From: Mycobacterium sp. ITM-2016-00316
Lineage (GTDB): Bacteria > Actinomycetota > Actinomycetes > Mycobacteriales > Mycobacteriaceae
Length of the DNA stretch: 64,000 nt
Direction: 5' to 3'
Assembly: GCF_002968335.2 (NCBI RefSeq)
Contig: NZ_CP134398.1
Span: 2,046,001 to 2,110,000 of the forward strand
Position 1 is the first letter of the stretch. Each line of letters begins with the position of its first letter. This document shows positions 34,795 through 59,395 of the stretch, in pieces. Under the pieces are notes generated by a model. That model saw only the letters and a list, made by a program, of their open reading frames with translations, made no database searches and had not been told where the DNA came from. The position numbers were made by a program, and so were the translations under genes.

Positions 34795-36525
34795 TCAGTC
34801 CAGGATGCGGCGTGCCACGTTGGTGCTGACCAGATCCAGCAACTCGTCGGACCGTCCGGCCAGGATGGTGCGGATCGCGTACAGCGAGAAACCCTTGGCC
34901 TGCTCGACGGTGATGGCCGGCGGGATGGACAGTTCCTGACGCGCGGTCACCACGTCGATCAGCGCCGGGCCGTCATGGGCGAAGGCCGCGGTGAGCGCGG
35001 ATTCCAGGTCGCCGGGCCGTTCCACCCGCCGACCGAAGAGCCCCAGGGACCGCGCGACCGCCGCGAAGTCGGGATTCTGCAGATCGGTGCCGAAGGTCAC
35101 GATGCCGGCCGCCTTCATCTCCAGCTCCACGAAGTTCAGCGACGAGTTGTTGAACACGATCACCTTCACCGGCAACCGGTTCTGGCTCAGGGTGATCAGC
35201 TCCCCGAACAGCATGGTCAGTCCGCCGTCGCCGGCAAAGGCCACCACCTGCCGGTTGCGGTCCACCGTCTGGGCGCCGATGGCCAGCGGCAGCGCGCAGG
35301 CCATGGTGCCGTGGTTGAACGAGCCGAGCAGGCGCCTGCGGCCGTTCATGGTCAGATAGCGCGCCGCCCACACCACCGGCGACCCGACGTCGACGGTGAA
35401 CACCGCATCCGCAGCGGCCAGCCGATCTGCCTCGGCGGCAAGGTATTCCGGCCGGATGGGGGTCTTGTCGCGATCGTTGACGGCGAGCTCGTCGAGCCGG
35501 CGGCGGGTCTTTCGGTAGTGCTTCAGCGACCGGTCCAGGTGCGTGCGGTCGTCCTTGGTGCTCAGCAGTGGCTGCAGGGCGGCCAGGGTGTCGCCGACGT
35601 ATCCGACCATCCCGAGGTCGATCGGGGTACGCCGGCCCAGGTTTCGGCCGCGGACGTCCACCTGGATGACGGTGGCGTGCTCGGGATAGAACTGCCGGTA
35701 CGGGAAGTCGGTGCCCAGCATGAGCAGCACCTCGGCCTCTTTGATGGCCTTGTAGCCGGAGGCGAATCCGAGCAGGCCCGTCATTCCGACGTCGTACGGA
35801 TTGTCGTATTCGACGAATTCCTTGCCGCGCAGGGCATGGACCACCGGCGCCTTCAGGGTGGCCGCCAGCGTCACCAGCTCGTCGTGGGCACCCTCGGCCC
35901 CGGCGCCGGCGAGGATGGTGATCTTGTCGGAGTTGTTGAGAATCGTTGCGGCGCGACGCAGTTCATCGTCGGCGGGCCGGCATATCGAGTGGGTGGGCAG
36001 CACCGGGCTGACTCTGAGGTCACCGGCCTTGTGCAGGAAGATTTCGCCCGGAATGACGACGACGGCGACACCGTTCTCCTCGATGGCGGCGCGCATGGCC
36101 ATCTGCAGCACCCGCGGCGCGGACTCCGGGGTGGTGACCAGCTCGCAGTAGACACTGCATTCGCGGAACAGTTCCTGCGGGCGGGTCTCCTGGAAGTACT
36201 CCGAGCCGATCTCGGACTGCGGGATGTGCGCGGCGATGGCCAGCACCGGCACCCGGCTGCGCTGGGCGTCGAACAGCCCGTTGATCAGGTGCAGGTTGCC
36301 CGGCCCGCAACTGCCGGCACAGACCGCGAGCTGCCCGGTCAGCGCCGCATCACCGGCCGCCGCGAAACCCGCCGTCTCCTCATGGCGGACGTGTTCCCAG
36401 TTGAAGTCGTCGGCGCGCCGGATGGCGTCGGTCAGCCCGTTGAGGCTGTCCCCGGGCAGTCCGTACATGCGTGTGACCCCACTGGCCTGCAGTGTCAAGA
36501 TGACGTGATCGGCAAGTGTGGTCAT
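34795..36525 (-). CDS. poxB: Pyruvate dehydrogenase (quinone)/PoxB-like ThDP enzyme
   Basis: A 576-residue thiamin-diphosphate enzyme. The catalytic Glu is in RHEETAGFAA, the FAD/structural centre includes GMTGLLGFASGYKAI, and the ThDP motif runs from AGDGGLTMLFGELITL to FNNSSLNFVELEMKAAG. This pattern fits pyruvate:quinone oxidoreductase, which converts pyruvate to acetate and CO2 at the membrane, rather than acetolactate synthase. The start MTTLADHV at 36525 has TAGGGT on the minus strand five bases upstream. An E. coli-like C-terminal membrane-binding helix is not obvious. Confidence 0.87.
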   Translation of the reverse strand: MTTLADHVILTLQASGVTRMYGLPGDSLNGLTDAIRRADDFNWEHVRHEETAGFAAAGDAALTGQLAVCAGSCGPGNLHLINGLFDAQRSRVPVLAIAAHIPQSEIGSEYFQETRPQELFRECSVYCELVTTPESAPRVLQMAMRAAIEENGVAVVVIPGEIFLHKAGDLRVSPVLPTHSICRPADDELRRAATILNNSDKITILAGAGAEGAHDELVTLAATLKAPVVHALRGKEFVEYDNPYDVGMTGLLGFASGYKAIKEAEVLLMLGTDFPYRQFYPEHATVIQVDVRGRNLGRRTPIDLGMVGYVGDTLAALQPLLSTKDDRTHLDRSLKHYRKTRRRLDELAVNDRDKTPIRPEYLAAEADRLAAADAVFTVDVGSPVVWAARYLTMNGRRRLLGSFNHGTMACALPLAIGAQTVDRNRQVVAFAGDGGLTMLFGELITLSQNRLPVKVIVFNNSSLNFVELEMKAAGIVTFGTDLQNPDFAAVARSLGLFGRRVERPGDLESALTAAFAHDGPALIDVVTARQELSIPPAITVEQAKGFSLYAIRTILAGRSDELLDLVSTNVARRILD

Positions 36526-44372: not shown

Positions 44373-44753
44373 TCACTCGTACGGATTCGGAACCCGTCCG
44401 CCGCTGACCTGTGTCAGCAGCGGAAGGGTCGCGAACGTCACTGCGGGCAACGTCAATTCGCTGCCATCGGTGAGCCGGGCCCTGGCCCAGGAGGATCGGT
44501 TGAAGCGCAGGCCGTCGATGTCGGACCACGGCACGGTCCGGCTGCTCAGCAACGTCCTTGAGGTCACCTTTTCGCGGTCGGCCACCGTCCGATAGCGCAC
44601 GACGGCCGCCGACACCAGCACCGGGATCACGAACAGGATCTGCGTCCAGCTCGGCCACACGAACACCAGCGCCGCCAGCCCGAGGAACAGAAAGAACACC
44701 GCGAAGTGGGCCATCGGGGAGATGCGGATGACAAGCGGGGAGGGGTCACTCAC
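44373..44753 (-). CDS. cfp6: PH-domain membrane protein (Cfp6-like, Rv3004)
   Basis: A 126-residue protein with two adjacent membrane helices (AHFAVFFLFLGLAALVFVW and ILFVIPVLVSAAVV) and a C-terminal bacterial PH-like domain (VPWSDIDGLRFNRSSWARA, LPAVTFATLPLLTQVSGG). M. tuberculosis Cfp6 (Rv3004) was first seen in culture filtrate but has this membrane layout. It is convergent with the DoxX gene (six-base gap) and divergent from the ilvB leader. Confidence 0.85.
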   Translation of the reverse strand: MSDPSPLVIRISPMAHFAVFFLFLGLAALVFVWPSWTQILFVIPVLVSAAVVRYRTVADREKVTSRTLLSSRTVPWSDIDGLRFNRSSWARARLTDGSELTLPAVTFATLPLLTQVSGGRVPNPYE

Positions 44754-44828
44754 CCCGTCATCTTCTCATCGCCAGTGGCGCCGGCTTGTCCGCGAGGGGC
44801 GGTGGCGTCCTCGATCGGGATGGGCAAT

Positions 44829-44858
44829 TTGACCTTTGAGCAGTGCGGCGGCTACCGT
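44829..44858 (+). promoter_or_regulatory. ilvBNC promoter
   Basis: TTGACC (44829-44834) and TACCGT (44853-44858) are 18 bases apart and fit SigA-type -35 and TANNNT -10 boxes. Transcription would begin about 44865-44867, at or just before the leader-peptide ATG, so the leader peptide is probably translated leaderless. Confidence 0.7.
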
Positions 44859-44866
44859 CAGGGTCT

Positions 44867-44938
44867 ATGTACACCCCGGACAAGCTCGTAGTAATTGGTT
44901 GGCGCGTTGATGCCGCGCTAGCTCTCTGCCGGGCTTAG
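44867..44938 (+). CDS. ilvB leader peptide (23 aa)
   Basis: A 24-codon ORF encodes MYTPDKLVVIGWRVDAALAL followed by CRA and a stop. The block CTC-GTA-GTA-ATT (Leu-Val-Val-Ile) uses GTA and ATT codons that are rare in this GC-rich genome, and more Val/Leu codons (GTT, CTA, CTC) follow. This is the pattern of a leader peptide whose translation senses charged Leu/Val/Ile tRNA. The stop codon lies just ahead of the second arm of the pause hairpin. Leaders of this kind upstream of ilvB have been described in actinobacteria. Confidence 0.85.
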   Translation: MYTPDKLVVIGWRVDAALALCRA

Positions 44939-44960
44939 CCAACAGCATCGACGCGCCGAC
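44898..44960 (+). promoter_or_regulatory. Pause/anti-antiterminator hairpin of the ilv attenuator
   Basis: Bases 44898-44913 pair with 44945-44960 over 16 bp, with two G-U pairs. The left arm lies in leader codons just after the Leu-Val-Val-Ile block, so a ribosome stalled there would cover it. The last base of the right arm abuts the terminator stem. Confidence 0.75.
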
Positions 44961-44995
44961 CCTCGTACAGCGGACTCCGCTGACGGGGGTTTTTT
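44960..44995 (+). terminator. Rho-independent attenuator before ilvB
   Basis: Outer stem CCCTCGT (44960-44966) pairs with ACGGGGG (44983-44989). The inner stem is CAGCGG (44968-44973) with CCGCTG (44977-44982) around an ACT loop. Six Ts follow at 44990-44995. This canonical intrinsic terminator sits about 65 bases before the ilvB GTG, so it must be bypassed for expression. Confidence 0.88.
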
Positions 44996-45058
44996 GCTGT
45001 CACAGAACGTCACCACACCACAGAAGCAACCGGACCGAACCAGATCGATGAGGAAAAA

Positions 45059-46905
45059 GTGAGCGCACCCACCACGCGGCCGCCGGAGTCCACCCAGCGC
45101 GCGAACGGCGTCAAGGCCCCTGCCAAGGCGGAGCCGAAGACCAATGTTGTTGCACCACAACAGATGACTGGCGCGCAGTCGGTCGTGCGGTCGCTCGAGG
45201 AGATCGGTGTAGAGATCATCTTCGGCATCCCCGGTGGCGCCGTGCTGCCCGTCTACGACCCGCTCTATGACTCGAAGAAGCTGCGCCATGTGCTGGTGCG
45301 CCATGAGCAGGGCGCCGGGCACGCTGCCAGCGGCTACGCCCACGCCACCGGCAAGGTCGGCGTGATGATGGCCACCTCGGGTCCGGGTGCGACCAACCTG
45401 GTGACCCCGCTGGCCGATGCCCAGATGGATTCCATCCCGGTCGTGGCGATCACCGGTCAGGTCGGGCGCGCCCTGATCGGCACCGACGCCTTCCAGGAAG
45501 CCGATATCACCGGGATGACCATGCCGGTCACCAAGCACAACTTCCTGGTGCGCGAGGGCGATGACATCCCGCGGGTGATCGCCGAGGCGTTCCACATCGC
45601 CGCGTCGGGACGCCCCGGTGCGGTGCTCGTCGACGTCCCGAAGGACATCCTGCAGGGCGAGTGCACCTTCTCCTGGCCTCCGGTGATGGACCTGCCGGGC
45701 TACAAGCCCAACACCAAGCCGCACAGCCGCCAGGTGCGCGAGGCCGCCAAACTGATCGCCGAGGCCCGTAAGCCGGTGCTCTATGTCGGAGGCGGTGTCA
45801 TCCGCGGTGAGGCGACCGACGAACTGATGGAGCTGGCCGAGCTGACCGGCATCCCGGTGGTCACGACCCTGATGGCCCGCGGCGCGTTCCCGGACAGCCA
45901 TCCGCAGCACATGGGTATGCCCGGTATGCACGGCACCGTCTCGGCGGTGGCCGCGCTGCAGAAGAGCGATCTGCTGATCGCGCTGGGCACCCGTTTCGAT
46001 GATCGTGTCACCGGCAAGCTGGATTCTTTCGCCCCCGACGCCAAGGTGATCCACGCCGACATCGACCCCGCCGAGATCGGCAAGAACCGGCACGCCGATG
46101 TGCCGATCGTGGGTGATGTGAAGAATGTCATCACCGATCTGCTGGAGATCCTGCGCCGCGACGGCACGAATGCAGCGTCGCTGAAACTGGACAACTGGTG
46201 GGAGTACCTGTCGAGCATCAAGGCCACCTTCCCGCTGAGCTACGGCCCGCAGAGCGACGGCAGCCTGAGCCCGGAACTCGTCATCGAGAAGCTGGGCCAG
46301 ATCGCCGGCCCGGAGGCGCTCTACGTCGCCGGCGTCGGCCAGCACCAGATGTGGGCCGCGCAGTTCGTGAAGTACGAGAACCCCAAGACCTGGCTGAACT
46401 CCGGTGGTCTGGGCACCATGGGCTACGCGATCCCCGCGGCGATGGGCGCCAAGTTCGCCCGGCCCGAGGCCGAGGTGTGGGCGATCGACGGTGACGGCTG
46501 CTTCCAGATGACCAATCAGGAGCTGGCCACCTGCGCACTCGAGGGTGCGCCCATCAAGGTCGCGCTGATCAACAACGGCAACCTGGGCATGGTGCGGCAG
46601 TGGCAGACGCTCTTCTACGGAGAGCGCTACAGCCAGACCGACCTGTCCACGCACAGCCACCGGATCCCGGATTTCGTGAAGCTGGCCGAGGCGCTGGGGT
46701 GCGTCGGATTGCGTTGTGAGCGTGCAGAAGACGTCGAAGACGTCATCAACCAGGCGCGTGCCATCAACGACCGGCCCGTGGTCATCGACTTCATCGTCGG
46801 CGCCGACGCCCAGGTGTGGCCGATGGTCGCCGCGGGCACCAGCAACGACGAGATCCAGGCCGCCCGCGGCATCCGTCCGCTGTTCGATTCGGAAGAGGGG
46901 CACGC

Positions 46906-46909
<4 letters not shown>
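45059..46909 (+). CDS. ilvB: Acetolactate synthase large subunit
   Basis: A 616-residue ThDP/FAD enzyme that condenses pyruvate with pyruvate or 2-oxobutyrate, the first common step to Val, Leu and Ile. The catalytic Glu is in [34 protein letters not shown] is typical of AHAS, and the ThDP motif runs [14 protein letters not shown] to [13 protein letters not shown] basic/Pro-rich N-terminal extension of about 35 residues precedes the core. AGGAAAAA serves as ribosome site before the GTG. ilvN overlaps its stop by four bases. Confidence 0.97.
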
Positions 46910-48470
<1,561 letters not shown>

Positions 48471-59176: not shown

Positions 59177-59248
59177 TGGGGTATGGTGTAATTGGCAACA
59201 CTAGGGATTCTGATTCCCTCATTCTAGGTTCGAGTCCTGGTACCCCAG
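59177..59248 (+). tRNA. tRNA-Gln (CTG anticodon)
   Basis: A 72-base cloverleaf. The acceptor arm TGGGGTA pairs with TACCCCA (59241-59247), with G as discriminator. The anticodon stem-loop GGGATTCTGATTCCC carries CTG. The T arm is CTAGGTTCGAGTCCTGG. CCA is not encoded. In bacteria with GatCAB this tRNA is first charged with Glu and then amidated. Confidence 0.97.
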
Positions 59249-59322: not shown

Positions 59323-59395
59323 GCCCCCGTCGTCTAGCGGCCTAGGACGCCGCCCTCTCACGGCGGTAGCGTGGGTTCGAATCCCATCGGGGGTA
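59323..59395 (+). tRNA. tRNA-Glu (CTC anticodon)
   Basis: A 73-base cloverleaf. The acceptor arm GCCCCCG pairs with the CGGGGGT near the 3' end, with A as discriminator. The anticodon stem-loop CCGCCCTCTCACGGCGG carries CTC. The T arm is GTGGGTTCGAATCCCAT. CCA is not encoded. It follows tRNA-Gln by 74 bases and is followed at once by a terminator. Confidence 0.97.

Follow-up and report, generated by a model that had tools for sequence, protein, structure and literature searches.

Transcription attenuators in front of ilvB are not new, having already been described in close relatives of the mycobacterium considered here. Earlier work on the one that precedes ilvBNC in Corynebacterium glutamicum is reportedly that of Morbach et al. 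(2000).

The initial annotation of the present locus stated that actinobacterial ilvB attenuators with leader peptides had been predicted, which is correct (Seliverstov et al. 2005, PMC1262725, for Corynebacterium, Mycobacterium, and Streptomyces) but understates the case, as tested examples are reported from C. glutamicum (PMC11857589) and Mycobacterium tuberculosis (Eckartt et al. 2026, PMC13236596). For the M. tuberculosis ilvB1 (ilvB1NC) attenuator, an abundant transcript of ~120 nt is reported to stop within the leader, and the leader ORF to be translated. An IlvB1 inhibitor no longer brings about induction once LVVI has been replaced by AAAA, and a leader ORF rich in branched-chain residues recurs across mycobacterial species (PMC13236596). 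For C. glutamicum ilvBNC, the introduction of PMC11857589 places the transcription start a single nucleotide away from the start codon of the leader, and the same paper reports that changing Val to Ala abolishes the response and that expression falls by 80% when the start codon is lost. Its three-hairpin model has the antiterminator and terminator hairpins sharing a boundary; mutations affecting the antiterminator only had moderate to weak effects, and a pausing role was suggested for the first hairpin (PMC11857589). In M. tuberculosis a 19-residue ORF has been noted ahead of ilvB, and in Mycobacterium abscessus a leader ORF is mentioned at this place (PMC11133741, PMC4974804), an ilvB-II motif has been described in Corynebacterium (PMC10272879), and the leaderless cysteine leader ORFs of mycobacteria are described as acting by translation attenuation (Canestrari et al. 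2020, as cited in PMC13236596). According to PMC1262725, alterations to the candidate control codons ahead of ilvB made no difference in Streptomyces coelicolor. Among titles and the opening lines of abstracts we found no class-wide account of a leaderless arrangement or of rare control codons, which is not to claim that none exists.

We analyzed a window of 64,000 nt from Mycobacterium sp. ITM-2016-00316 (NZ_CP134398.1), and all coordinates below are window positions. Genes were assigned with NCBIfam models, and the locus comprises the following features.

44829..44834, + strand: −35 box TTGACC, read from the sequence; TTGAC with 17–18 nt spacing is part of the joint test described below
44853..44858, + strand: −10 box TACCGT, read from the sequence, ending 8 nt before the ATG
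44867..44938, + strand: leader ORF of 23 codons, MYTPDKLVVIGWRVDAALALCRA, with a TAG stop, from ORF translation; a leader is present in 28/28 same-genus relatives
44885..44896, + strand: control codons CTC GTA GTA ATT (Leu-Val-Val-Ile), from sequence and the codon usage of GTA and ATT
44897..44913, + strand: 5′ arm of the long hairpin, read as the antiterminator, from folding and covariation around a conserved GCGC
44897..44923, + strand: candidate third hairpin, 44897–44906 with 44914–44923, from folding (10 bp, −14.5 kcal/mol)
44945..44961, + strand: 3′ arm of the long hairpin, from folding; its last two bases, 44960–44961, also lie in the terminator stem
44960..44989, + strand: intrinsic terminator stem-loop, 44960–44973 with 44977–44989, from folding
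44990..44995, + strand: terminator T run of six T, from sequence
45059..46909, + strand: ilvB, acetolactate synthase large subunit (NF005860, 1159 bits against a cut-off of 881)
46906..47415, + strand: ilvN, acetolactate synthase small subunit (NF008864, 229.5 bits against a cut-off of 119)
47457..48470, + strand: ilvC, ketol-acid reductoisomerase (NF004017, 541.9 bits against a cut-off of 336)

Thus a short ORF with codons for end products (LVVI, 23 codons) precedes a biosynthetic operon, ilvBNC, and an intrinsic terminator (44960–44995) lies between that ORF and the first gene. The terminator stem has 13 pairs with a bulged A at 44967, and 63 nt separate the T run from the GTG start codon of ilvB at 45059, which bears out the initial description of a terminator with six Ts about 65 bases before the gene. 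Compared with the whole genome (a 5.99-Mb chromosome), 44829–45058 matches only itself, and Rfam gave no match there at gathering score; the only two matches in the window that reach it are tRNA genes at 59177–59248 and 59323–59395 on the + strand. The encoded IlvB is 93% identical to that of Mycolicibacterium sp. J2 and 84% to that of M. vaccae, identities that point to a Mycobacterium/Mycolicibacterium-type chromosome. A second domain of thiamine pyrophosphate (TPP) enzymes (PF02776) is found in the window at 36184–36519 on the minus strand, ~8.5 kb upstream of ilvB; genome-wide, PF02776 has seven matches, six of them above the family cut-off.

As judged from published descriptions, the locus shares with M. 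tuberculosis ilvB1 the LVVI control residues, the leader terminator, the operon, and a similar length (the U tract ends at +126 in M. tuberculosis, and the last T of the window leader is the 129th nt counted from the ATG), whereas the leader sequence differs and the stop codon is UGA there and TAG here. With C. glutamicum ilvBNC it shares a start at the leader start codon, probable in the window from promoter spacing, a Val-rich leader peptide, and a long hairpin whose base overlaps that of the terminator; the overlap comprises three bases (GCC) in C. glutamicum and two in the window, the peptide of C. glutamicum has another sequence, MTIIRLVVVTARRLP, and the antiantiterminator proposed there has only a candidate counterpart here. 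The predictions in PMC1262725 concern the same gene, an ORF with branched-chain codons, and a terminator, and are predictions only, with the mode of regulation left open. Corynebacterium ilvB-II likewise has a leader ORF over the first stem, then a terminator, before ilvB, but its other antiterminator pairing finds no support in the 99 leaders examined here (PMC10272879). The mycobacterial cysteine leader ORFs resemble this one as short regulatory ORFs before an amino acid operon that are leaderless, as the window ORF probably is, and differ in responding to cysteine and in being described as translation attenuators.

To place the locus among its relatives, we compiled 128 upstream regions: 58 named loci (L002–L059), 28 from the same genus (L083–L110), L111, 40 picked regions (L112–L151), and the window itself. 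The 40 were a non-random choice from the matches listed among 267 further genomes of the family with an IlvB match; several genus groups, g3 among them, are missing from this set, and L060–L081 lie outside the survey. The terminator pattern was matched by 100 of the 128 regions, and these are the leaders analyzed below. A frame choice preferring branched-chain runs yielded leaders in 99/100, a figure biased by that very preference; the controlled figure, from the joint test, is 97/100.

The 23-residue leader ORF with LVVI in the rare codons GTA, GTA, and ATT, as initially annotated, is confirmed by the sequence and by codon counts. Among the 15,876 codons of 46 long window ORFs, GTA accounts for 31 of 1338 Val codons, ATT for 28 of 640 Ile codons, and CTT for 28 of 1496 Leu codons, compared with 133 of 160, 35 of 80, and 30 of 168, respectively, in the control runs of 99 leaders, the usage of this one genome serving as the yardstick for all of them. 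We infer that rare codons at control positions would raise the sensitivity of the sensor. Start codons across the leaders are ATG or GTG. In four same-genus leaders (L094, L095, L101, and L107), LVVA(P/H)CALVVA replaces LVVIG.RV, and in L094 and L095 no strong long helix follows the control codons (−0.6 and −2.9 kcal/mol). The leader Leu-Val codons CTCGTA (44885–44890) recur exactly in the terminator 5′ arm (44962–44967). A decoy pairing based on this repeat was considered and dropped, because several leaders without CTCGTA still carry other branched-chain codons and because a ribosome on the CTCGTA codons would push in the wrong direction.

The locus is very probably a translation-dependent transcription attenuator of ilvBNC and the counterpart of the tested M. 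tuberculosis ilvB1 attenuator. Its anatomy, its conservation, the covariation of the long hairpin, and the lack of a better alternative pairing are observed here; others have shown in relatives that the leader ORF is translated, that an RNA ends prematurely, and that regulation depends on the control codons, and by analogy the window species would be regulated in the same manner. Transcription would begin at or beside the leader ATG, so that the ribosome would load directly at the bare 5′ terminus. As long as Leu-, Val-, and Ile-tRNA are charged, the ribosome would reach the stop codon and prevent the long hairpin (44897–44961), the terminator (44960–44995) would fold, and transcription would stop. 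When these tRNAs are short, the ribosome would wait at the LVVI codons, the long hairpin would form just ahead of it and weaken the terminator, and the polymerase would continue into ilvB. Against this reading stand equilibrium folding that shows no switch, a modest excess of hairpin overlap, the weak antiterminator mutants of C. glutamicum, and the codon result from S. coelicolor.

The long hairpin pairs 44897–44913 with 44945–44961 in 17 pairs, including two G-U. The 103 bases from 44896 to 44998 fold at −60.5 kcal/mol (z = −6.28), a value that none of 200 dinucleotide shuffles reached. GCGC is present in both arms in 87 of the 100 leaders, 70 of them distinct, with five aligned positions invariant. 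Across the 70 distinct leaders, kinship being ignored, offsets −1, +5, +6, +8, and +9 from the GCGC exceed all 200 shuffles in pairing frequency; covariation at +7, +10, and +11 was not above the shuffles, pairing at −2 and −3 was no more frequent than in them, and offsets −4 and −5 are mostly G facing a constant terminator C and hence uninformative. Offset by offset, covariation thus backs the helix core and not the overlap with the terminator. Helix geometry was assessed in 93 leaders, after leaving out 6 of the 99 that have no helix core of at least 5 pairs. The core lies 3–6 nt after the control codons in 82/93 and 0–2 nt before the terminator CCC in 79/93, with a loop of 13 to 63 nt. The window falls outside both ranges (0 nt and −2), since its helix extends as far as the control codons on one side and into the terminator on the other. 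In 67 of these leaders the stop codon is at most 6 nt away from where the 5′ arm ends; in 5 it falls inside that arm, and in 21, including the window (22 nt), it sits further into the loop.

The initial annotation had described this structure as a 16-bp pause hairpin with its left arm in the leader ORF. The hairpin itself stands, with 17 pairs as counted here, but it is more likely an antiterminator, by analogy with the C. glutamicum layout, because its 3′ arm shares 44960–44961 with the terminator 5′ arm. These shared boundary bases are present in the window; we do not claim such overlap as a conserved feature, since an overlap of at least 3 bases occurs in 72/99 leaders against 1144/1980 controls with five randomized bases, which is modestly above expectation with kinship ignored.

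The switch itself was modeled by equilibrium folding with the ribosome footprint barred from pairing. In the typical leader, the long helix is lost when the ribosome occupies the stop codon (median probability 0.00, mean 0.12–0.15) and persists when it occupies the first control codon (median 0.82–0.83), a behavior that, as modeled, fits the published direction. The terminator base, however, is predicted to be formed in all ribosome states (mean 0.86–0.94, or 0.91–0.98 for its three outermost G-C pairs), and it drops by more than 0.2 on stalling relative to the stop codon in only 5/99 leaders, the window not among them. In the window, naked RNA favors the long helix over the terminator base (base 0.12–0.14), and a stalled ribosome restores the base (0.74–1.0), the reverse of the model, because it covers the bases that would reach the terminator. 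With the ribosome at the stop codon, the window hairpin stays at 0.67–0.82 unless pairing across the ribosome is forbidden. Folding therefore does not predict that the long hairpin excludes the terminator upon stalling, even though the two overlap by two bases and the hairpin covaries. This does not refute the attenuation model, since equilibrium folding takes into account neither the order in which the steps occur nor the ribosome's bulk. Within these models, base-pair exclusion alone does not explain the switch.

These folding results bear on an alternative that we consider quite unlikely, namely the simpler mechanism that the initial annotation had offered as a fallback: the long hairpin would serve as a pause signal, giving the ribosome time to catch up, and the terminator would be acted on by the ribosome itself without any antiterminator. 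Such a scheme would agree with the minimum-energy fold, in which long hairpin and terminator can coexist, with the predicted formation of the terminator base in nearly all leaders and states, and with the first-hairpin pausing proposed for C. glutamicum (PMC11857589); yet a pause hairpin needs neither the close approach to the terminator seen in those 79 leaders nor the overlap seen in the window, and in both tested cases the original studies invoke an antiterminator (PMC13236596, PMC11857589). If the long hairpin is an antiterminator, its action is a matter that we infer. A tentative idea, which we regard as rather unlikely, is that antiterminators of this leader class act by contact and not by taking terminator bases: with a ribosome stalled at the control codons, the helix would keep that ribosome pressed to the terminator's 5′ foot and so block closure of the terminator, where base pairing alone would permit both hairpins. 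The idea arises because the helix core keeps a near-fixed distance to both neighbors while the loop varies so widely. If it is true, a spacer between helix and terminator should abolish induction with all pairs intact.

At the 5′ end, the −35 and −10 boxes are 18 nt apart and 8 nt separate the −10 box from the ATG at 44867, a distance found in 28/28 same-genus relatives. A minus-strand ORF of 126 codons (44373–44753) starts 76 nt from the −35 box, and the attenuator promoter thus sits in a divergent gap. In a joint test that required TTGAC-N17/18-nAnnnT, a start codon 6–8 nt on, and an ORF with at least 3 consecutive L/V/I, 97 of the 100 leaders passed against 0 of 2000 dinucleotide shuffles, kinship being ignored. 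A mechanical sigma-70 scan of 44700–45100 at a threshold of 9/12 consensus bases gave 0 promoters, so the promoter call rests on conservation. The window spacing fits a leaderless start, and the mRNA 5′ end is probably at or near 44867. The earlier proposal that the boxes set the start of transcription at or close to the ATG is therefore upheld by the boxes themselves and by the joint test, with the exact start deduced from spacing, and so, together with the anatomy and the folding, is the broader one of a leaderless or nearly leaderless ilvBNC attenuator with branched-chain control codons and an intrinsic terminator. It is very unlikely that transcription begins further upstream and the leader ORF is reached through a ribosome binding site or scanning, all else being as in the attenuation model. 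The deduced nature of the 5′ end leaves room for this, and the leader passages of PMC13236596 give no ORF start position relative to the mapped +1; against it stand the 97 leaders that pass the joint test, in which the −10 box ends 6–8 nt short of the start codon, and the start mapped beside the leader start codon in C. glutamicum (PMC11857589).

The annotation had also noted no clear antiterminator pairing. This holds for a separate one, neither the window nor the 99 leaders providing any, but the long hairpin itself is the likely antiterminator. We rejected a separate 2:3 antiterminator of the Escherichia coli trp type (mean z +0.40, none below −2) and a pairing of the terminator 3′ arm with the leader (mean z +0.15, 1/99 below −2), since in the 99 leaders neither was better than shuffles. 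A switch built on either one is thus extremely unlikely, even though the 3′-arm pairing has been proposed for Corynebacterium ulcerans ilvB-II (PMC10272879) and the 99 leaders contain no known Corynebacterium. The candidate third hairpin uses the 5′ arm of the long hairpin and is a possible counterpart of the C. glutamicum antiantiterminator, which could hold that arm when no ribosome is there. Its z is −0.24 in the window leader, not better than shuffled sequence, and −0.73 on average with 20/94 below −1.5; as a conserved feature it was set aside and is kept as a candidate only.

Such leaders extend well beyond the mycobacteria. Among the named loci, they are found in Mycobacterium, Nocardia, Rhodococcus, Hoyosella, Lentzea, Saccharothrix, Actinopolyspora, Virgisporangium, Dactylosporangium, Klenkia, Actinomadura, Marihabitans, Phycicoccus, Flexivirga, Arthrobacter, and Brevibacterium. 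Of the 28 regions without the terminator pattern, 21 were inspected by eye (all except L045, L048, L051, L053, and L056–L058), and seven of these show such a leader (L020, L022, L027, L030, L040, L059, and L121, the last having missed the pattern as the analyzed region ended short). The other 14 do not (L011, L037, L038, L041–L044, L046, L047, L049, L050, L052, L054, and L055); two belong to Actinomyces, two to Bifidobacterium, one to Prauserella, and nine to other genera, which we take to be Microbacteriaceae. One of the 14, L043 (Pseudoclavibacter caeni), has Leu/Val/Ile codons in a row, CTGGTCGTCCTTCTTCTCGTCCTCCTGCTCATTCTC, ahead of ilvB, which may represent a leader peptide of a different type.

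In most leaders, the usual explanation that the two hairpins cannot coexist does not follow from folding, which thus does not account for the step from stalled ribosome to read-through. The comparison links the tested ilvB attenuators of M. tuberculosis and C. glutamicum as instances of a single device that is widespread, spanning several orders of Actinomycetes, that uses rare control codons, and that is probably leaderless.
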